Assembly (NCBI RefSeq): GCF_000328765.2 | Contig: NC_019954.2 | Span: forward strand, 1,904,516-1,968,515 | From: Tepidanaerobacter acetatoxydans Re1 | GTDB lineage: Bacteria; Bacillota; Thermosediminibacteria; Thermosediminibacterales; Tepidanaerobacteraceae | Length of the DNA: 64,000 nucleotides | Direction of reading: 5' to 3' | Shown here: piece after piece, positions 25,688 through 40,377 of the stretch | How the letters are laid out: each line of letters begins with the position of its first letter | Numbering within the stretch: position 1 is the first letter of the stretch | Notes under the pieces: generated by a model | What the model was told of the DNA's origin: nothing | Database searches by the model: none | What the model saw: only the letters and a program-made list of their open reading frames with translations | Translations under genes and position numbers: made by a program

Positions 25688-26644
25688 GTGAAAAGAACAT
25701 TTGAATTGAATTTTGAAGACATGATGAATATCTCAAAAAAGGATTTGCTTTTATCAATAAGCTCATCAGAAGGCAGAACAGTGATGGCGGAAACAGATGT
25801 CGCAAAACAACCTATAGTATACGGTGTAAGCAATCCGGAACTTGCTGCCGCCTTTGGTGCAGATATGATTACACTGAATTTATTCGATTTTGACGCACCA
25901 TTCATCTTCGGTATAGATGATAAAGACTTGGCAATATCAGATGCATCTGATATGGTAAATAAATCTGCTGAAATTCAAAAAATCCTTCATAGAAATTCTG
26001 CTGATAGGGATTATATACGCAAAATAAAAAATGTAGTTGGAAGATTGCTGGGTGTAAACATGGAGCCGATTCCAAAAAATATTAATTATTGCGAGGGCAG
26101 AAAACTAAACAAGAAAAATTTGGAGAAAGCGTCAGAACTGGGTTTTGACTACATAGTCATAACCGGAAATCCCAAAACAGGAATTACAAATGAGGATATC
26201 TTAAACGGCATAAAAGAAGCTGCGGATATTTTAGGTGATAAAGCTATAATAATCGCAGGGAAGATGCATGGTGCCGGCAGTGATAATATTTACGATCCAA
26301 AAGTGCTCCAAGACTTTTCTAAGGCAGGTGCAGATATTATTTTAATAGGAGCACCGGGAACGATACCCGGATTGGATTTTGAACTATGCCGCCGTCAAAT
26401 AAGCGCAATTCACGAAACTGGAAAAATGGCTTTAACTGCCATAGGGACTTCACAAGAAGGTGCGAATTTAAACGTGATACAAGATATGGCCTTAATGTCA
26501 AAAATGGCAGGAGCAGATATTCAACACATCGGTGATGCAGGTTATGGCGGTATTGCTTTACCGGAAAATATAGCAGCACTTTCTATTGCGATAAGAGGAA
26601 AAAGACACACATATCGCAGGATGGCTTATTCGTTAAGAAAATAG
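25688..26644 (+). CDS. DUF7916-family TIM-barrel protein of a PTS operon
   Basis: This 318-residue protein is predicted to be a TIM-barrel. It has VSNPELAAAFGADMITLNLF, FDYIVITGNPKTGI, IIAGKMHGAGSDN, AGADIILIGAPGTIPG and HIGDAGYGGIALPEN, with phosphate-binding-like glycine loops. Homologues often lie in PTS operons and have been labelled as hydrolase- or phosphonomutase-like, but the reaction is not known. Here it is the last gene of a sigma-54-driven PTS operon, with a GTG start and a GGAG RBS. A role in metabolising the imported sugar phosphate, for example as an aldolase or epimerase, is inference only. Confidence 0.8.
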   Translation: MKRTFELNFEDMMNISKKDLLLSISSSEGRTVMAETDVAKQPIVYGVSNPELAAAFGADMITLNLFDFDAPFIFGIDDKDLAISDASDMVNKSAEIQKILHRNSADRDYIRKIKNVVGRLLGVNMEPIPKNINYCEGRKLNKKNLEKASELGFDYIVITGNPKTGITNEDILNGIKEAADILGDKAIIIAGKMHGAGSDNIYDPKVLQDFSKAGADIILIGAPGTIPGLDFELCRRQISAIHETGKMALTAIGTSQEGANLNVIQDMALMSKMAGADIQHIGDAGYGGIALPENIAALSIAIRGKRHTYRRMAYSLRK

Positions 26645-29582: not shown

Positions 29583-29936
29583 TCATTCCCCTATCTCGTT
29601 AGATGTTGACATTCCCTCTGCTATATAAATCTCAATTTGTATCTTGTCAATAATTTCTGCAATGGCTACATCCTTTGTTACAAATCGCACCACTGCATAT
29701 GTTGTGGTGTCAAATGTATCATAAACTCTGCCGGCACTATAACATCCAAGCGGAACGGTATGAACACTGTTAGCCACATAGCCCACTATGCCGACTGGAT
29801 CTAACAGTGCCATAATTGCTTCTCCGTCATAGTCATTTTCAAAATCCTTAACAAGTCGCAAGAATTGTCCCGGTTTAAATATCCTTGACCCAAAATAATG
29901 ATTTAGCCCTACTATCGCCACATAAATTGGTTTCAT
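29583..29936 (-). CDS. Stand-alone HIRAN-domain protein
   Basis: This 117-residue protein is almost only a HIRAN domain: VAIVGLNHYFG, KPGQFLRLVKDFENDYDGEA, DPVGIVGYVANSVHTV, SAGRVYDTF and FVTKDVAIAEII. HIRAN domains bind DNA ends or unpaired DNA and are usually fused to SNF2/Rad5-type helicases. This one has no helicase attached. The ATG at 29936 has GGGGGT about eight bases upstream. It lies 64 bases after brxA on the same strand, so it can be transcribed with the BREX-like operon. A role as a DNA-recognition part of that system is an inference from position. Confidence 0.75.
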   Translation of the reverse strand: MKPIYVAIVGLNHYFGSRIFKPGQFLRLVKDFENDYDGEAIMALLDPVGIVGYVANSVHTVPLGCYSAGRVYDTFDTTTYAVVRFVTKDVAIAEIIDKIQIEIYIAEGMSTSNEIGE

Positions 29937-30000
29937 GCTATCATACCCCCAAATAAAATAACTGGGCAATAAATGTTTTAATTTAGCAAGAAAATTAATT

Positions 30001-30708
30001 CTATGCTAGGGAAATGGCCACATCACTTCCCATTTTAACTAAAGCAAATTCATCAGATAATGCAAAATCTTCCATTTTGTATTGGATTTCAAAGGGAAAG
30101 ACACTCTTTATATTATTTGCTTTGAAAAATTCTATATAATCTTTGTTATTTACCGAAAGATACGCTTTTAAATAAAGAAGTTTTAGCGAGGTATTTTCTA
30201 TTTTTATAGGTGTCTTCTTCTTAAATTTACCATTACCCCTTCGCTCTAAAACCTGCCAATCAACCATTGAACTCATGATTTTCTGTACTGCATATTTTAC
30301 AGTGCTGCGCTCTCCCCAAATTTCATAAATGCGCTTTTCCACCAACGACAAAGTGACATCATCTTGAAAATCAGTAATAGCGCCTATAATTGTAGATATA
30401 TCCCTAAAAATAGGATAAACCGCAAACATCATTGTCCAATGAAGCAGTAATCGCTCTTGATTAAAGACTTTATTTGAAAGTATAATTGCCTCACTTTTTA
30501 TACATTCTAATTCTTCCGGGATATTTACCCATATAGCCATCAGCTTATCCCTGGCTTTTCGCCTTGTAATATCGCCGGGAATTTCTTGTTTCAAGTATTC
30601 TTCCAAGGTCTCTCTTATTAAACTAATATCGCTTTCATTACTTGCAATCTCCATCGTCTTATCCAGCCACTCACCTTTTAAAAATCTGTCAAGACCAACT
30701 ATTCGCAT
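30001..30708 (-). CDS. brxA: BrxA-like protein of a type 3 BREX-like system
   Basis: This 235-residue protein has no catalytic motif. It is mostly helical: EYLKQEIPGDITRRKARDKL, then NQERLLLHWTMMFAVYPIF, and a charged C-terminal half with KKKTPIKIENTSLKLLYLKA. The BrxA name rests on size and on position after pglZ, where type 3 BREX operons have brxA; sequence similarity could not be scored. BrxA proteins are small helical DNA-binding components. It starts three bases after the pglZ stop, so translation is coupled. It is the last core gene of the operon. Confidence 0.6.
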   Translation of the reverse strand: MRIVGLDRFLKGEWLDKTMEIASNESDISLIRETLEEYLKQEIPGDITRRKARDKLMAIWVNIPEELECIKSEAIILSNKVFNQERLLLHWTMMFAVYPIFRDISTIIGAITDFQDDVTLSLVEKRIYEIWGERSTVKYAVQKIMSSMVDWQVLERRGNGKFKKKTPIKIENTSLKLLYLKAYLSVNNKDYIEFFKANNIKSVFPFEIQYKMEDFALSDEFALVKMGSDVAISLA

Positions 30709-30711
30709 GAT

Positions 30712-32631
30712 TTATTCTTCCTTCCTTATATGGATAAATGGTACGATTACTTCTTCAATGGAAATACCGCCATGAGTAAGATTTTTTTCATTATCCTTGC
30801 CGTAAGAGTAACATCCGTCACTGATAATATAGTTATACTCCTCAGGAAGACCGTAACCTGCCCATTTGTATGCCTTGTACCTTTTTAAAGCCGTTTCATA
30901 ATTCTTCCCCTGTTCATAAATCCTTACCCTGTCAGCGGCCCTATCCACCGCCAAGCCTTCCCGAAGGTTGCCCTGACCCACACTGCTAACATGACCGTGG
31001 TCTGACGTAATGTAAACATCAAAATTCCGTTCTAAAAGAGTCTGCAGGAATTTTTTAAAACCTTCTTTTTCCATCCAAAGCCGAAGATTTTGATGCAGTC
31101 CTGCTCGAAGCATTTGCTGACCATGAACCATATCATCTATCATATTTACAACCAAGCCTAGCATCTTAGATTTAGGGTTTTCAACGATATCTCTTAATCC
31201 ATTTTCGTTAAAATGTTTTATGCCTCGCATGTAATAAATAGCATCAGGTCTAATGCCACGCTCTGCCCAAAATTTCTTCCAATGACGTTCATCTTCACTA
31301 GTGCTGAAAATAGTTTTGCCGAAATACCTAGGAATTTGCCCGGAGAATATCGCTTGCCTGGATATCGAAGTAATCGTGGGAATCCAAGCAAAACAAAATT
31401 TTTCTTCAAAGCGGCAACTCGAATTCCGATTCAAATACCGGCTAATGATAAGCCAGTCGTCAAGCGCCATACCATCAACTACAATAAGAGCAGCTTTTTG
31501 CGTAGCATCTTTTCCCATTCTATAGTTAATATACCAGGGGATGTGATGAACCATAACCGGAGCACGAGCATACGACAATGATGGTAATAGATTATAGTTG
31601 TCAAAAAGCCAAGTGCGAAACCTGCTGTTTAGCATATCGGAAATCGATATGAAAGCCTTCTCATCAAGCCTTCCTTGGATTCGTTCATCATTGTAAATAA
31701 CCAATATTTCAGCCCAATCTTTTGCTGCTTGTAACCAGTCTTTATAAGAAGTTATATTATCGAGTGTATCATAAAGGCGATCCAATAAATTATTATAAAT
31801 TGCCCTAAGTTGGCCAAGTTCATCTATCAGTATTCCTCGGTGCACCCACAGAGGCACGTTGTCAATGTTATCACTTCGGACAGGAGTTAGATAGCCTTCA
31901 TCAAAAAGACTGCCCAAATATATTTTAATATCTTTATGAGAAAAGTCCACCGCACTTTTTATAGGCAAAGTGCTAGTTAAACCCTTTACAAAGATTTCCC
32001 ACTGTCCCTGCAGGTAATCAAAGAAAGAGTCGGCACCCTCTAATAGTTTTTTCACCGGATATTCCTTAAAATCTTCCTTGCACATTAGTAAATCAGCAAG
32101 ATAATCTGAAACTACTTGAGGCAGCGAATCATTTTCATAGTAAAAATCGATCAAAGCCTTTATTAGGTCTGTAAATTTGTTAATTGTTTCAGGGTATATG
32201 CCAAAAAGGTTTTTTAAAATAAAATCTAGTGTTTCCCGCTGGCTAAGGTTTTGGCCCATATACTTATATACCCTATATAGCCTATTATAAAGCTCACTGT
32301 CCAGTTCCTTTAATATACTATAAGAAAGGCCCGGAAACAATTCCTTAAGTGAAAGAGTAATATTATAGAAACTGCTTTCAATATCATATGGCATATAGTT
32401 GTGATAGCCTGTCACCTTAAGTACAAGTTTCACGTTGCAATCGGGTTTTTCTCGAAAGTTTTTCTCGAAAAAATACCTAAATGCAATGGAATCATCATAA
32501 TTTACTAATTGAAAGCCCTGTGAGGTAATAGAAGTTAGGATATCTTCCGATGAAGTAATATCATCAATATCATATAATAATATGAATGGTATAGGGCTTT
32601 GCTTAAGTTTTGCAATAACTGCTGATTTCAT
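30712..32631 (-). CDS. pglZ: PglZ alkaline-phosphatase-fold protein (BREX)
   Basis: This 639-residue protein has the PglZ domain in its C-terminal half. The alkaline-phosphatase fold motifs are AALIVVDGMALDDW (about residue 380), TSDHGHVSSVGQG (about 545) and NLTHGGISIEEVIVPF near the end, which would hold the metal-binding Asp and His residues. PglZ is the one protein shared by all BREX types and is needed for both methylation and phage exclusion; it acts as a nuclease or phosphatase. It begins 12 bases after the methyltransferase gene. In known type 3 operons a helicase gene lies between these two. Confidence 0.92.
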   Translation of the reverse strand: MKSAVIAKLKQSPIPFILLYDIDDITSSEDILTSITSQGFQLVNYDDSIAFRYFFEKNFREKPDCNVKLVLKVTGYHNYMPYDIESSFYNITLSLKELFPGLSYSILKELDSELYNRLYRVYKYMGQNLSQRETLDFILKNLFGIYPETINKFTDLIKALIDFYYENDSLPQVVSDYLADLLMCKEDFKEYPVKKLLEGADSFFDYLQGQWEIFVKGLTSTLPIKSAVDFSHKDIKIYLGSLFDEGYLTPVRSDNIDNVPLWVHRGILIDELGQLRAIYNNLLDRLYDTLDNITSYKDWLQAAKDWAEILVIYNDERIQGRLDEKAFISISDMLNSRFRTWLFDNYNLLPSLSYARAPVMVHHIPWYINYRMGKDATQKAALIVVDGMALDDWLIISRYLNRNSSCRFEEKFCFAWIPTITSISRQAIFSGQIPRYFGKTIFSTSEDERHWKKFWAERGIRPDAIYYMRGIKHFNENGLRDIVENPKSKMLGLVVNMIDDMVHGQQMLRAGLHQNLRLWMEKEGFKKFLQTLLERNFDVYITSDHGHVSSVGQGNLREGLAVDRAADRVRIYEQGKNYETALKRYKAYKWAGYGLPEEYNYIISDGCYSYGKDNEKNLTHGGISIEEVIVPFIHIRKEE

Positions 32632-32643
32632 GGGAAGTTCCTC

Positions 32644-35193
32644 CTAATCCCCCAGTCTAGTCAATGCGTTATCGTAGTACATCAAGAGGGTAGTGTCTTC
32701 TTGCAACACAGATTCCGGCAGGCGCTCGCCTATTTTAACAATGGTATTATAATCCTTTTTGCTCCAACAGTCCTTAAACCCTGCCCGAACGGCTTCAGTC
32801 CTGAAGTAGCGCAGCTTGCCGCGGCCAGTCTTATATTCCTCAAAATCTTTTAAAAGCCGCCGTTCCCGGAGTTTTTCCAAGTCTGACTGTTTGCTTGTAT
32901 CCGGCACGTACCAGCGACCCTTTTCATCCTGCAGAAAGCTTTCCTGTAGTAAATCGCCAAGTTCCGGCATATTCTCATGACGCAATTGCTTGAGCTCTTG
33001 TAAAAATTTAGGCTGTATATCCTGATAGGTCTTAGGCCCCTTTGAAAGTTCTTGTCTTAGCCACTGAATTGCAGTCTTCTCATCAAGAATCAGAAAAGAT
33101 AACTGTTCATTTAACTCCAATTCCATTCGCTTTTGCTCATACTTACTAACCTGATCCGGTAAAAAGTACATACCGTCCCGTTCTGGAAACCGCTGCTTTA
33201 GCCCTTGATAAAAATCTGCTGCTCCCATTGGAACTGTCGCCCCACGCTGAATATGATATGCTACCATGCTATCATAAAGCAGATAATTTTGCCTCTCCGG
33301 AATAACATCAAGTCTTCCGCCGCTTTCCAACGTCACCGGCAGCCGCTCCAGGTGTTGGCGTACAAAATTCCATACACCTTCTTCAGTACCTGCCTGCCGC
33401 ACAAAATCTTGCACAAAACGGTCTTTGGGTTTATAGGCAGAGATTATAAGGTCTTGCTTTACCGCCATTGTAGTTGTAACCTGTTTGAAACTCCCTTGCT
33501 GTTTATTTAAACTGCGGACATTTGCCACAACAAAACCTGCTCTCATAATTGCTTCTTGAATGGCATTCCATACACTGTTTTTAGAATTATGAAATTCAAC
33601 CGTCATCCAGCGCCCGGGTTTTAATATCCGATGCATCTCTTTAAAACATCTTTCCATAATTCTTTGGTATTCCACTAAACCCTTTCCCTGTGTTTTGTTT
33701 ATTATGGCTTCTGATTCGTTATTTGTAAAAACTTTCAGCCATGCCTCCCACAGAAAGTTGAGCTCCGAATACATGAGATTTGCTCCAAATGGCGGATCGG
33801 TGAAGATGTAGTCGATGCTGTTACTAGGAATATTTTTGAGGTCTGTCGAAGATGAACAATTAATTATAGATAAAGGTTTTTTACAAATAATTGAAAATGC
33901 TTTGGAAAAGTCCCGTATCTTTCCATCAAAGGTATTAAGAATATTAGCTTCAGCAAGTAGTGAAGCTACATAAAGGGTTCCACTGATAGGTCCATTACCT
34001 CGCCTACCTAAATTATATCTAGAAAGCTTTGAAGAAAGAGTCGCACATATAGATTGAAAGGCAACTAAAGACCGAAGATTTTCTTTTGCCTTATCGCATA
34101 TCGCACTTAACATCCACAAATTCCTTTTAGTATAAAAGTGATGGATATGTGTTATCCCAGCAATGTCATTTCTTCGTGACTCATCTCCCTCCGGCATACG
34201 GTCCGTAGGATACCAATAAGGGATATCCATCTCCTCAATCTTCTGGAGTAATTTCAAATCCTCCTCATCTGGAGTCTTTTCAAATCTTTTGCGGCCAACT
34301 GAATAGTTTATCATTACAGGTACTTGTTTTACCTGTTCTATCATCTTGCCTAATGCCTTATCATATATGGTTGTTTTTGCCTTCTCAACATTCCTCTTGT
34401 CAGTTAGCAATCCGCAGTGAGGACAGTGGAATTTATCCATGACCTTGCCCGTTTTTTTGTTTACCGCTATATTCCAAAAAATCATTTCTTCCATACAATT
34501 AGGACATAGAAAAACATCGGACCATACCGTATAGTTTATCCGTCCCTTTATGGGTTTGCCGTCAATGCTTAGTTGGGATGTACCATTAATAGTATGATTA
34601 GTTTCATACATCCAACCGCATTCATCTTCCACTTCTTGTAATATCCTTTTAGCTTCCTTTTCAAATTCCTCCACGTCCACTGGGGTATTGTAATTATATG
34701 CTATAAAGGTAGCCGCCGGCGATAGGTCGCATAGAACTGCTCTTCTAGCTCCCCATTCTATGGTTTTGCCGTCCTGTCTGGCTTCTTGTTCTAATTTTAT
34801 TTTAAAATCCTCGTCAGGATTCTCGCACATTGCAGCAGCTACTCCGGTCATGCCGGTACCGCAAAAGCCGTCAAAAACTATATCACCCGGTTTTGTGTAG
34901 TGTAAAATATATCGCATGATGGCTTTATGTGGCACCTTAGTATGATAGGAATGGGCGTTGTATATGGGGTCGTTCTTGCCTTCGGATACATCAGCAGTAT
35001 ATGGCTCCACATTGTATTCATCTGTGGACTCGTCATAAGAAGTTCCGTATTTTTCTATAAATTCACCTATGAACGGGTTTGGGCATGCGGTGTAATACGG
35101 CGGATCCGAAAGTGCTATAATATCTTCATCCTTTCCTAGTGGAAAGCCTTCAATATTCCTTACTTTGTCAAGTATTTCTTTTGTTAGTTTCAC
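32644..35193 (-). CDS. pglX: BREX type 3-like adenine DNA methyltransferase (PglX-type)
   Basis: This 849-residue methyltransferase has an N-terminal ALSDPPYYTACPNPFIGEFI segment, the SAM-binding motif IVFDGFCGTGMTGVAAA at about 106-120, and a catalytic TDPPFGANLMYSELNF at about 465-480, consistent with N6-adenine methylation. A zinc-ribbon-like insert lies at about 230-260 (CPNC ... CPHC). The C-terminal third is probably a DNA-recognition and partner-binding region. In BREX the enzyme marks host DNA at one strand of a non-palindromic site so that it escapes exclusion. It is 13 bases after brxC and 12 before pglZ. Confidence 0.9.
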   Translation of the reverse strand: MKLTKEILDKVRNIEGFPLGKDEDIIALSDPPYYTACPNPFIGEFIEKYGTSYDESTDEYNVEPYTADVSEGKNDPIYNAHSYHTKVPHKAIMRYILHYTKPGDIVFDGFCGTGMTGVAAAMCENPDEDFKIKLEQEARQDGKTIEWGARRAVLCDLSPAATFIAYNYNTPVDVEEFEKEAKRILQEVEDECGWMYETNHTINGTSQLSIDGKPIKGRINYTVWSDVFLCPNCMEEMIFWNIAVNKKTGKVMDKFHCPHCGLLTDKRNVEKAKTTIYDKALGKMIEQVKQVPVMINYSVGRKRFEKTPDEEDLKLLQKIEEMDIPYWYPTDRMPEGDESRRNDIAGITHIHHFYTKRNLWMLSAICDKAKENLRSLVAFQSICATLSSKLSRYNLGRRGNGPISGTLYVASLLAEANILNTFDGKIRDFSKAFSIICKKPLSIINCSSSTDLKNIPSNSIDYIFTDPPFGANLMYSELNFLWEAWLKVFTNNESEAIINKTQGKGLVEYQRIMERCFKEMHRILKPGRWMTVEFHNSKNSVWNAIQEAIMRAGFVVANVRSLNKQQGSFKQVTTTMAVKQDLIISAYKPKDRFVQDFVRQAGTEEGVWNFVRQHLERLPVTLESGGRLDVIPERQNYLLYDSMVAYHIQRGATVPMGAADFYQGLKQRFPERDGMYFLPDQVSKYEQKRMELELNEQLSFLILDEKTAIQWLRQELSKGPKTYQDIQPKFLQELKQLRHENMPELGDLLQESFLQDEKGRWYVPDTSKQSDLEKLRERRLLKDFEEYKTGRGKLRYFRTEAVRAGFKDCWSKKDYNTIVKIGERLPESVLQEDTTLLMYYDNALTRLGD

Positions 35194-35206
35194 TTACATT
35201 CCTCCA

Positions 35207-38200
35207 TTATTTCAGCATTATCCGCACACGATCGACATCCATTCCCTTTACCATCTCATCAATATAATCGTTCAAGCGCTGTTTCATATCAGATACAGTA
35301 ACCGGTCCGCCTTTAAATATTGCCCTTACCAAATCTTCAGTGGTAATCTCTACCTTATCAAGACCCTTCATTAGTATATTAATCGTTGAAACAAGCTGTG
35401 AATCGATTTTATCAGGAAGCCGCTGATTTTGGGTAATACTCTCTAAAGCTTGCCGTTGAGGCTTATCTAGTAAAGCAATGTTCTCCTTTACTTTTTCATC
35501 TTCTAAAATCTCAAGGACTATCTTTTCCCATTGGAAAAATAGCTCTTCCATAGATTTCTCAATGGCTTCCACCACTCCAAATACCGGCTGCTCATCTTCA
35601 TCAGGTGTATATCCGCAGTGGGGGCATAATGGACTCATATTAATATCATCTTCAATTAAGCTAAAACATGTTTTCAATTTCAAAAGTCTATTGCACATTT
35701 TTTCATAGGGTTTTGGATAAATTAAATCACCAACACAAGTAAGCATATCCAGATTATGTTTTAATCTACTTTCTAAAAGCTTTTGTTTTTGCTTATCGCC
35801 GTTTAAATCCAGGCGATATTTTTTATGAAGCTTGATATAAATAGAAATATATTCTTTCTTCAGTGCTTGAAGTTTACCTACATATTCTTTGATATACGTA
35901 TCTGTCAGTTCCTGCGGCTTTTGTACCTTGTCTAGTGCTTCACCTCGGACCTTTTGGACTTTTTGATTCCACTTATCATCTTTAAGTATCATACATGTAC
36001 GTGTAAGATAGGATACATAAGGATCAACCTTTAGTTTAAAATCCCTTATATTCAAGATTTCTTGCATTATTTCAATGTTAGCTAAGGAACTTGCTACCTC
36101 GTCTTCTGAAAACCTGAAGTTCTTTAACTTTGCGGGGGTGTTATATTGTTTTATGGCATCAAGGAAATCCTTTAGCGTTTTTAAGCTTTCCTTATAGTTT
36201 TCTTTTGTATCTTCATCTATTGCAGGTTTATCCCAAAGTGCCAAATCACCTATGAGAAATTGCTGTGTTTCGATTACCCTTTTGGTCAATTCCTCTGCTC
36301 GAACAAGCATTTTTTCTATGGCAGCTTCTCGCGTGTTGGGATTGGTTATTTGACCAGGCGGCAGCCCCAACCCTTCGAAAAGTTTTTTTAATATTTTTAC
36401 AGGGACACCTTCCGGCACCTGACAGTATTTGAATAAAATCAAATCTGCAGGATTGGCGGCAGCTATTTCTTCCATTTTTGTAGCATCAAAAGTATGTCCA
36501 GAAATGGTCAAAGTAGCATGACCACTATATACTAATGCGCAAAGTATCAATGTGACCCATACATCTTCTAATTGAAATTCTTTATCAAGTGTAACTTCAC
36601 TTAAATATTCTAAGATATCTTCTCTGTTTAGCACATGTTTTTCCGGCAAATTTTCTAAAAGCTTGATGTAACGGCGCGCATAAATTGATTTTTCCGGTGC
36701 AATCATATCACCTTCCAAAAGCCCCAGAGAATCTAGCACTTTGGCACCCAGTTCATTTTTTCTTCCGGCAAGATAGTTTAATCCTGCTTTAAAAAGTTCT
36801 TTCATATTCTCGCGTGTTACTTGTGTATAAAATCTTGGGTAATAAGGATATTTATCATTAAAATAAGTCGAAAGACATGCAGAAGCAGTCATATCCACAA
36901 ATTCCTTTACGGTATGCTCTTCGGCAGCTTTACCTTTTAGCCAGTATTGTATAGTCTGTTGCTCGCCGGCAGTCTTTACTATAAAGCACTCCTTGACATG
37001 TTCTTTTATCCACTGAACAATTGCCTTTAGATAACCTTCGGCTTTTTTAAAATAAGTCTGTTTACTATCTGCTGAGGATACCATCGCAAGTTCCATAGAA
37101 GCAGCATACAGCTTTATATATTCATCAACTTTTTCATCTCTGTTTATGAATTCAAATATTACCTCATCTTTCTCAATTTCACCTTGATAGACGTTGTTGC
37201 CATATGGGCGTAAAAAATATATGTAAAAATCTCTAGGGGGTTGAGCAGTAGTGCGTTCATTGGGAGCGCCAAAGAACAGATAACCATATCGCTCAACCTT
37301 CTTCTCCTCCCAAATAATCTCATACTGCCATATCCTTCGGCCGGTTTTATGTTCAGGCCTTTCCCAGTTCAATACCTTAAGCAGTGCGTCATAATAGTAT
37401 TTATTGAGCATATCATCATCCATGAAATCGGCTTTTGCTTGAATTTTTGCATCATAATCTATATCTTTCTTTAAATCCAGATAGTACTGCTCGTTATCTC
37501 GGTTATAAGAGATAAATTGGCCGCTAACGGTCTTTAAGATTTCCCGGACCGCTGTTTCTACCGTAGTCTTTAAAAAACTTTCCTCTACTTCAGGCATAGG
37601 TGTATATATACAAAGGTCATCCTTCATGTTATCGACAGTTATGCCAATGGGTGCATTAATATCACCAGTGGTTAGTCTGTGAACACTTAGAGCGTGGATG
37701 ATTCGCAGAGCTATAGGTCGGTACTGAGGCCTTGTATATGATTTTAGTATAAGGTCTTCTAATACACTGCTTTTTTCCACTACCTCCCGAAGGTCGGGGT
37801 CTGAGCGCACGGAAATATTTTCCTTTATATACTCCCAGTATGAGTCATATGAGATGATTCCGGTCTCGTTTTCAGGAACATCTTTGTCTAAGATTTTTTT
37901 GATAGTATGTGTTATGGTCTTTAAAACCTCTCGTTTTTCTGCTATGTAAACTTTTTCGAAGATTTCTATATACGCCGGATGAATTGGATATAGATTTACA
38001 TAATCTTCCAATCTATCAGCCATATTTGAATATAGATGGGAAAACTTGGTCAGGTGTTCTCGTATCCACGCCTTTTGCCGTTCATCTTTTTTCAGTATCC
38101 GCTCTGATACAACAAAAGATATGTCCTGCTTCCGGATTACTACTTGTTCATATCTATCCCTTACACGTCTAAGTGAGTCGGCAACAAATGCAAACTGCCC

Positions 38201-38902
38201 GCTGTCAAAAAGGGATTCTTGAACCCCTGCTATGAAACGTAGCCGACAGCTCTTCGATATTTCGCCGATTTCGCGGAGAAAATTAAGCGCAAGGACTACT
38301 TTTTGTTCGGTAAGGCCTCGAAGATAATCCAGAAATTCATCCGCAACTATCAAATAACCTTTATCAGGATATTTTTCTTGAAATAGTGCCATCATCTCTA
38401 AAAGGTAATCTTTAGTATTAGAGGCTTCCTCCATGGATGGGAAACGGTAGTCGATGCCTCTTTTTGCCAAATCTTTCTCCAGGTGCCCTATAACTAAGTC
38501 TCGAAGGTCCATCTTTGAAGTGCCGATTTCAAACCTCAAGACTTCAAATTTGCCGGCAATGCTTTGAGCTGCTTCTTGAAATATTTGGTTATTTACCAGC
38601 TCAAGCATCTTTTTATCTTCGGCTACGGCAGATAGTACTGACATTAGATGAGATTTACCCGTACCATAGTTGCCAACGATAAATATACCCTTATTATCAA
38701 AGGAATTTTCGAACTGCAGCTGGGGAATAACTATGTCTTTTAATGTTTTTGCCATACTATCTGACATTACATAAGTTTTAACCAGCCTCATAGCCTCCTG
38801 AGGCTGGTCTGCTTCTACCAATTTTATAACGGATTCTACCGGATCAAAACTGACAAGTTCCCTGTATTTCACTGGAAACACTCCCTCTATTAATCTAGTC
38901 AT
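35207..38902 (-). CDS. brxC: BrxC-like large ATPase (DUF6079-type)
   Basis: This 1231-residue ATPase has Walker A GNYGTGKSHLMS at residues 77-88 and Walker B KGYLIVADEFLDYLRG near 190. The middle and C-terminal parts are helical, with a zinc-binding-like CPHCGYTPDEDEQP near residue 1090. The size and layout match BrxC of type 3 BREX (also annotated DUF6079), an ATPase needed for defence. It starts 14 bases after brxF and forms the core of the five-gene operon. The call is firm as a BREX-type ATPase; the subtype depends on the neighbouring BrxF and PglX-type genes. Confidence 0.85.
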   Translation of the reverse strand: MTRLIEGVFPVKYRELVSFDPVESVIKLVEADQPQEAMRLVKTYVMSDSMAKTLKDIVIPQLQFENSFDNKGIFIVGNYGTGKSHLMSVLSAVAEDKKMLELVNNQIFQEAAQSIAGKFEVLRFEIGTSKMDLRDLVIGHLEKDLAKRGIDYRFPSMEEASNTKDYLLEMMALFQEKYPDKGYLIVADEFLDYLRGLTEQKVVLALNFLREIGEISKSCRLRFIAGVQESLFDSGQFAFVADSLRRVRDRYEQVVIRKQDISFVVSERILKKDERQKAWIREHLTKFSHLYSNMADRLEDYVNLYPIHPAYIEIFEKVYIAEKREVLKTITHTIKKILDKDVPENETGIISYDSYWEYIKENISVRSDPDLREVVEKSSVLEDLILKSYTRPQYRPIALRIIHALSVHRLTTGDINAPIGITVDNMKDDLCIYTPMPEVEESFLKTTVETAVREILKTVSGQFISYNRDNEQYYLDLKKDIDYDAKIQAKADFMDDDMLNKYYYDALLKVLNWERPEHKTGRRIWQYEIIWEEKKVERYGYLFFGAPNERTTAQPPRDFYIYFLRPYGNNVYQGEIEKDEVIFEFINRDEKVDEYIKLYAASMELAMVSSADSKQTYFKKAEGYLKAIVQWIKEHVKECFIVKTAGEQQTIQYWLKGKAAEEHTVKEFVDMTASACLSTYFNDKYPYYPRFYTQVTRENMKELFKAGLNYLAGRKNELGAKVLDSLGLLEGDMIAPEKSIYARRYIKLLENLPEKHVLNREDILEYLSEVTLDKEFQLEDVWVTLILCALVYSGHATLTISGHTFDATKMEEIAAANPADLILFKYCQVPEGVPVKILKKLFEGLGLPPGQITNPNTREAAIEKMLVRAEELTKRVIETQQFLIGDLALWDKPAIDEDTKENYKESLKTLKDFLDAIKQYNTPAKLKNFRFSEDEVASSLANIEIMQEILNIRDFKLKVDPYVSYLTRTCMILKDDKWNQKVQKVRGEALDKVQKPQELTDTYIKEYVGKLQALKKEYISIYIKLHKKYRLDLNGDKQKQKLLESRLKHNLDMLTCVGDLIYPKPYEKMCNRLLKLKTCFSLIEDDINMSPLCPHCGYTPDEDEQPVFGVVEAIEKSMEELFFQWEKIVLEILEDEKVKENIALLDKPQRQALESITQNQRLPDKIDSQLVSTINILMKGLDKVEITTEDLVRAIFKGGPVTVSDMKQRLNDYIDEMVKGMDVDRVRIMLK

Positions 38903-38916
38903 TTCAATAGCGGCGG

Positions 38917-39402
38917 TTAAAAACTAGCCTTATAGTTCTGGTCTATATCAATAATTGTATAATCGACCTCAACAGGGTATTTTACATATTCTCTATGGCC
39001 GGGTTTAGCATAAATCAGAATATCATCTTTGATGATGCCTGGCCAATCAGATATGAGTTTTCTGTGCCGCGAGATATTTTTTAGAAGTACCATGGGGTCT
39101 GTATTCAGCGGTTTTTCAAACAGTATTTCGATGTGGTCAAAAATAACTGTTTCAGCACTGATGCCATTTATGATTTCATCAATGCACTGATTCACAAATA
39201 GGCTGTGTTCATGGCTTGGAATCATCATCAAGCGTTCTGACAGGGCGAGGTTAAGGTTTACATAAGCATAGTTGCCGCTTTCAGCTATCTGCTTTAAAAG
39301 AAGGCTTTTTTTATGCGAATCGTCACCGGCAATTAGAAGTAGTTGGTAGAACTTATGTGAAAAAATCATAAGTGCATTTGTTATCTCGTCTGTTAACCCC
39401 AT
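38917..39402 (-). CDS. brxF: BrxF-like small P-loop protein
   Basis: This 161-residue protein has a P-loop-like N-terminus, LLLIAGDDSHKKSLLLKQIA, and an aspartate-ending beta strand, TVIFDHIEIL, as Walker B. BrxF is the small ATPase that marks type 3 BREX. Here the Walker A glycine before the lysine is replaced (GDDSHKKS instead of GxxxxGKS), so ATP binding may be weak or lost. It opens the operon and has a strong GGGAGG RBS. The name rests on gene order, size and the P-loop trace. Confidence 0.75.
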   Translation of the reverse strand: MGLTDEITNALMIFSHKFYQLLLIAGDDSHKKSLLLKQIAESGNYAYVNLNLALSERLMMIPSHEHSLFVNQCIDEIINGISAETVIFDHIEILFEKPLNTDPMVLLKNISRHRKLISDWPGIIKDDILIYAKPGHREYVKYPVEVDYTIIDIDQNYKASF

Positions 39403-39726: not shown

Positions 39727-40233
39727 ATGGGAACAGTTTCGGGAAGAATCGGCGGCGCTATCGGAGGATATGATATCAATGCCACTGTAGAAAACGGAGT
39801 AATTTCCGGCAGAATCGGTGGGATGATTTTTGGAGACGATATAGATTTAAAATATTCTATGAAAGAAGGATTTATAAACGGCAGATTGGGCGGGGCAATA
39901 ATCGGAAAAAGCGTTGAAGGGAAGATAAGCCCTGATTTTCTCTCAGTGCGAATAGGCGGAATGATCGACGGTAACGACCTTGAGCTTGAAACCCGCAACA
40001 ATTCAGTATACGGACGATGCGGTGGGCCTGTAATTGGCTTTGAGGTGGAAATTGATATTTTAGAAAATCAGGTCACAGGGCGGCTAGGCGGGGATGTTAT
40101 CGGAATGGATGTTGCCGGATATGTAACAGATGTAGAACCTATAGTCGCCGGAGCACTATTTGCAATGACTTACTATATATATAAAGTGAATCACCAAGAC
40201 GGCGGCAGCCATGGTAGTTCAGCCAATAATTAG
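39727..40233 (+). CDS. Glycine-rich tandem-repeat protein (G-R-[IL]-G-G repeats), function unknown
   Basis: This 168-residue protein consists of six imperfect repeats with a period of 22-24 residues. Each opens with GR(I/L)GG, then two to four residues and G-x-(D/E/S)-(I/V/L). The units begin near residues 6, 28, 52, 74, 96 and 118, for example GRIGGAIGGYDI, GRLGGAIIGKSV and GRLGGDVIGMDV. A short tail with a possible membrane-associated helix (PIVAGALFAMTYYIY) and a Gly/Ser/His-rich end follow. No signal peptide or catalytic motif is visible. The regular alternation of short strands and Gly turns suggests a beta-solenoid or barrel. The RBS AGGAGGT is strong. The gene is monocistronic, divergent from the BREX-like operon. 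Confidence 0.85.
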   Translation: MGTVSGRIGGAIGGYDINATVENGVISGRIGGMIFGDDIDLKYSMKEGFINGRLGGAIIGKSVEGKISPDFLSVRIGGMIDGNDLELETRNNSVYGRCGGPVIGFEVEIDILENQVTGRLGGDVIGMDVAGYVTDVEPIVAGALFAMTYYIYKVNHQDGGSHGSSANN

Positions 40234-40329: not shown

Positions 40330-40377
40330 TATTTTAAAATCCATCTCACTGTAAAAGCAAGATGGATTTTAAAATAT
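40330..40377. terminator. Hairpin between convergent genes, probable terminator
   Basis: TATTTTAAAATCCATCT and AGATGGATTTTAAAATA are perfect arms around a 13-base loop. The T-rich 3' arm can serve as the release tract on both strands. It lies between the repeat-protein gene and nhaC, which converge. Confidence 0.75.

Follow-up and report, generated by a model that had tools for sequence, protein, structure and literature searches.

The window, a 64,000-nucleotide stretch of the genome of Tepidanaerobacter acetatoxydans Re1, carries on its minus strand, from position 39402 to 30001, the genes brxF-brxC-pglX-pglZ-brxA. All five open reading frames are present, and the tight spacing reported in the first-pass annotation (intergenic gaps of 14, 13, 12 and 3 nt) is exact. 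The identities proposed there are likewise borne out by a BREX profile search, which returned strong type 3 matches for all five products. The first gene, brxF (38917..39402), codes for a 161-aa type 3 BrxF/inactive-STAND component (PADLOC PDLC02497, 3e-63; NCBIfam NF033453, 133 bits at a cut-off of 50 bits). It is followed by brxC (35207..38902), the product of which is a 1231-aa AAA+ ATPase of the DUF6079 family (PDLC02482, 1862 bits; Pfam PF19557 (DUF6079), 1417 bits) that keeps the P-loop GNYGTGKS at residues 77-84 as well as D188/E189. The gene pglX, or brxXI (32644..35193), starts with GTG and encodes an 849-aa adenine methyltransferase with a nested target-recognition insert (PDLC02541 (PglXI), 1439 bits; PF01555), in which four cysteines (C230, C233, C257, C260) and a DPPF motif (466-469) are retained, all of them invariant in a residue comparison with helicase-bearing loci. 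The product of pglZ (30712..32631) is a 639-aa type 3 PglZ of the alkaline-phosphatase superfamily, which acts as a nuclease in type 1 (PDLC02556, 1065 bits; NF033449 "BREX-3 PglZ", 846 bits at a cut-off of 250 bits), and brxA (30001..30708) encodes a 235-aa DNA-binding component (PDLC02437, 347 bits). No transposon ends or paired repeats were found around the operon, and the results of promoter and terminator scans were no better than chance.

According to the PADLOC, NCBIfam and Pfam profiles, the locus possesses the BrxF, DUF6079 BrxC, PglXI, type 3 PglZ and BrxA of type 3 BREX. Compared with the canonical locus, brxF-brxC-pglXI-brxHII-pglZ-brxA in the type 3 passages of PMC12839542 and PMC10799925, five of the six components are there, alike in order, strand and subfamily. 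The canonical locus, however, has brxHII as its sixth core gene, whereas in the window the methyltransferase gene and pglZ are separated by a junction of only 12 nt (32632..32643, minus strand) at the position taken by brxHII in most type 3 loci. The absence of any trace of a lost gene from this junction, claimed earlier on the basis of spacing, was corroborated by tblastn with all collected BrxHII proteins, which revealed no BrxHII remnant between positions 26000 and 41000 of the window. A search of the whole source genome (G000, one 2.76-Mb contig) with two BrxHII proteins did not reveal the gene either, the best matches being partial and to generic SF2/SNF2 helicases, so for this genome there is no support for a borrowed helicase in the sense of a BrxHII encoded at another site. 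Since BrxHII is missing from both the locus and the genome, the locus is filed as a BrxHII-less variant rather than as a canonical six-gene type 3 system. The proteins are not placed in another defence family: no Drm model of DISARM is among the matches listed for seven scanned proteins, which include the five core gene products, and BrxC has no DUF499 match at E 0.01, its full-length match being to DUF6079. BREX-related (BR) type 3 systems, as outlined in PMC12839542, have a related methyltransferase, a PglZ and an iSTAND protein in common with the window, but they use a DUF499 ATPase and keep the helicase. As for the premise that known type 3 loci carry brxHII, it holds as the usual state and fails as a universal one: the count in PMC12839542 gives BrxHII in 702 taxa, or 77% of type 3 systems. 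That the gene is missing in about a quarter of type 3 taxa follows from this count, and the novelty is therefore lower than was assumed at first; the type 3 section of PMC12839542 and the passages of other papers that were consulted contain no discussion of BrxHII-less type 3 as a variant.

Comparison of the locus in relatives showed that the helicase-less order is conserved and that the strain is not alone in lacking brxHII. All three Tepidanaerobacter genomes searched (3/3) have brxF-brxC-pglX-pglZ-brxA without a helicase and with identical gaps, the 12 nt between pglX and pglZ being found also in the congener G001 and in G002, another species of the genus. The same order occurs in two further genera of the family, intact in G010 and with a split pglX in G003. 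In G004 the copy is broken and lies in pieces, and a fragment in G008 comprises pglZ-brxA-HIRAN. A scan of genome contigs with one protein had as its sole find a near-identical locus of Tepidanaerobacter sp. EBM-38. G001 has, in addition, a second and distinct type 3 locus (L033) that includes BrxHII. This locus is nearly identical to the helicase-bearing type 3 BREX L068 of G109, a member of another family (BrxHII 98%, BrxF 99%), which points to recent horizontal transfer; in the sub-branch formed by L067, L068 and L033 an extra ORF (785, 930 and 190 aa, respectively) is located between pglX and brxHII.

In a phylum-wide sample, BrxC matches were detected in 48 of 398 genomes. The helicase state was scorable and BrxC was long enough in 38 loci: BrxHII precedes pglZ in 26 of them, 2 have a helicase after brxA and 10 have none, a helicase-less fraction that is no census because the sample is enriched for relatives of the window. 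The ten include the window, two congeners and an Enterococcus faecium plasmid. In the BrxC tree (IQ-TREE, 38 rows), the window and four relatives form a clade with 100/100 support that is nested inside helicase-bearing loci. At least six changes are needed to explain the helicase-less label across the 38 loci, and the AU test rejects a tree that unites all helicase-less loci in one clade (p about 1e-165). One must bear in mind that L004, L064 and some other loci sit on long branches, and hence their exact positions in the tree are unsure; the window clade is independent of them. With a BrxC divergence between its genera of about 0.7 changes per site, this clade is an old one.

The five proteins look active. 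Positions that never vary among the helicase-bearing relatives carry the same residue in the window almost without exception (109/109 in BrxC, 134/136 in PglX, 45/46 in PglZ), and those retained in PglZ include D386, D499, H503, D544, H545 and H620. Between the three Tepidanaerobacter copies, dN/dS amounts to 0.0-0.16 for BrxC, PglZ and BrxA, 0.25-0.33 for BrxF and 0.27-0.37 for PglX. The fate of the copies in G003, with its split pglX, and in G004 indicates that decay does happen in the family, and it might be supposed that the window, too, represents an early pseudogene, in which the helicase has just been lost and the locus is decaying, or else an assembly artefact. Such an explanation has next to no probability, being contradicted already by conservation: three separately sequenced genomes share the intact order and the 12-nt spacing, the genes are under purifying selection, and the clade has diverged too far in BrxC to be recent. 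On the same grounds, and given the position of the clade among helicase-bearing loci, the stable minimal variant postulated in the first-pass annotation is upheld.

A further observation concerns the methyltransferase. Comparison of the three Tepidanaerobacter strains revealed a swapped target-recognition segment in pglX (33790..34330, minus strand; about residues 290-468), with protein identity of 26-60% in its core versus 92-100% in most windows on either side. The G001 copy, and it alone, has a further segment of lower identity at residues 531-580. The position of the variable segment matches the nested target-recognition domain assigned to type 3 methyltransferases in PMC12839542, so the swap between strains reads as an exchange of specificity, which would be expected if specificity is under selection. 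Swaps of this kind would arise as well in a modification-only relic, where PglX still methylates, possibly regulating genes or protecting against another system, and where the loss of BrxHII has ended restriction. The helicase is indeed the sole missing part, and methylation has no obvious need for it. Nevertheless, a relic of this sort is improbable, since relaxation would be expected once restriction was gone, yet PglZ, BrxC and BrxA have kept their invariant residues at the low dN/dS given above, and the helicase-less state has outlasted the divergence of several genera.

The five-gene order without brxHII is also found on the E. faecium conjugative plasmid pP47-180 (NZ_CP091103, L004), where the gap between pglX and pglZ is 8 nt according to the ORF call. 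This locus differs from the window in that it belongs to a distant lineage (BrxC 37% identical), has a shorter PglZ (488 aa) and lost its helicase independently. Its operon is followed by a gene for a 325-aa protein without a family match, and a comparable match to brxC was obtained on a second E. faecium plasmid, CP063640. L057 and L063, which are related to the E. faecium locus and come from other families, are like the window in having no BrxHII between the methyltransferase gene and pglZ, but they harbour a DrmD-like SNF2 helicase directly after brxA (12299-14668 in L057, 12374-15577 in L063), of which the window has no counterpart. The profile match of the L063 helicase (1245 bits over the whole length) identifies it as DrmD-type, not BrxHII. 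It appears, then, that some BrxHII-less lineages have regained a helicase.

Between the window and G002, the block of five genes (30001-39395) has an identity of about 97%. Beginning at the start of brxF and ending just past brxA, almost all 100-nt windows reach 93-100% identity once the recognition segment is set aside, as opposed to about 60-80% in the flanks; brxA has a dS of 0.07-0.14, and a chromosomal DEAD-box gene one of 2.3. A near-identical block between diverged flanks, together with a diverged chromosomal gene, argues for a recent exchange of the five genes as a unit at the same chromosomal site. On the far side, the operon is flanked by a resident gene for a 168-aa GRIGG-repeat protein (39727..40233, plus strand), which has no Pfam or PADLOC match and the homologue of which lies at the same place in G002 (dS 0.97). 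This gene flanks the operon in two species and is probably truncated in G001. Between it and an antiporter gene there is an intergenic perfect inverted repeat of 17 nt with a 13-nt loop (40330-40376).

At the other end, the interval delimited in the first-pass annotation, which starts at 29583, takes in a sixth ORF that was left unmentioned. It encodes a stand-alone HIRAN-domain protein of 117 aa (29583..29936 from its ATG, minus strand), located 64 nt past brxA. All members of its family (19/19) match PF08797, the score of the window's own protein being just below the Pfam cut-off. The AlphaFold model reached a pLDDT of 85 with 19 sequences (39.5 with 4), and in a fold search of the PDB it resembled the HIRAN domain of human HLTF and lp_0118 with a TM of about 0.55, a likeness at the fold level only; a PDB search with the HIRAN HMM profile gave no match. 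As the modelled fold is akin to a DNA-binding domain, and as a HIRAN gene follows brxA in the three Tepidanaerobacter genomes and in G008, the protein could be imagined as a DNA-end or nick sensor that functionally replaces the helicase in a six-gene system. This is very improbable. The exchanged block stops at brxA, and the dS of HIRAN against G002 (1.7-2.5) is chromosome-like, far from that of brxA; a BREX gene was beside HIRAN in none of the 15 other contexts examined (0/15), and the clade members G003 and G010 have no HIRAN. Taking dS, the scattered contexts and the absence from clade members together, HIRAN was rejected as a sixth BREX component, and since the exchanged block ends at brxA, it is probably part of the resident chromosomal flank. 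The movement of the five genes as a unit argues against HIRAN as a component and, at the same time, supports the self-sufficiency of the five.

That transfer bears as well on the idea that the system works with a helicase or motor encoded elsewhere, either a chromosomal SNF2 protein or the type 1 motor BrxL. Both are at hand in the source genome: an SNF2 helicase of 1030 aa (C1:2,101,636-2,104,728) and a type 1 BREX with BrxL (C1:566-580 kb). BrxL is present also in G002 and G008, and the DrmD-like helicases beside brxA in L057 and L063 could be taken as a precedent. This possibility nonetheless seems rather doubtful. The operon crossed between species without any helicase, and the SNF2 protein, which obtained its top scores with the ZorD and DpdE models, belongs by its matches to other families and lies away from the operon. 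G001, G003, G010, G123, G288 and G335 have no BrxL despite their helicase-less loci. Genome searches for BrxHII gave no matches in G123 and G288 and only partial ones in G003 and G010; with G003 and G010 (both of the window clade) and G123 lacking a close BrxHII as well as BrxL, the helicase-less order evidently occurs without either. Neither BrxL nor a helicase elsewhere therefore explains the pattern; BrxL was rejected as a helper because its distribution does not track the helicase-less state. The type 1-like locus itself (L035, C1:566093-579712) is composed of BrxC, a PsyrA-like gene, PglX, an 852-aa PglZ and BrxL.

It is thus likely that the type 3 BREX of the window is complete and functional, and that it does not require BrxHII, the loss of which lies far back. 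How such a system may work can be sketched by analogy with the type 1 model as summarised in PMC12839542. PglX would methylate host adenines at the site dictated by its nested recognition domain, and unmarked incoming DNA would be detected by the BrxC ATPase, BrxF, BrxA and PglX acting as one assembly, with BrxC, BrxF and BrxA serving for sensing and as a scaffold. PglZ would be the likely effector, nicking DNA or halting phage replication. The ATP-driven work might be done by BrxC, or by host helicases, in place of BrxHII. Both methylation and phage restriction would then proceed without BrxHII.

The presence of BrxHII in most type 3 loci (77% of the taxa counted in PMC12839542) suggests that it confers some benefit, and the simplest reading is that it adds something useful in many hosts while the core reaction can run without it. 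Since the helicase-less state is family-wide and has at least six origins in the sampled loci, the helicase looks optional, not missing. With some reserve, we lean towards regarding BrxHII as an add-on to a five-protein unit, BrxF-BrxC-PglX-PglZ-BrxA, that marks self and restricts phage. The helicase would have been discarded repeatedly, in separate lineages, and in some cases one of the DrmD type added. The BrxHII-less type 3 BREX is a real variant, conserved and repeatedly evolved, and not a new kind of system. As its existence was already implicit in the published count, the result clarifies what was known, with a consequence that can be tested, and is not the discovery of a new system. For annotation, it means that rules demanding BrxHII would overlook such loci or give them a wrong label. 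For the biology of type 3 BREX, this natural, intact and repeatedly evolved five-gene form is the smallest unit for asking what BrxHII does, and the sister strain G001 carries both forms, with and without BrxHII, side by side.
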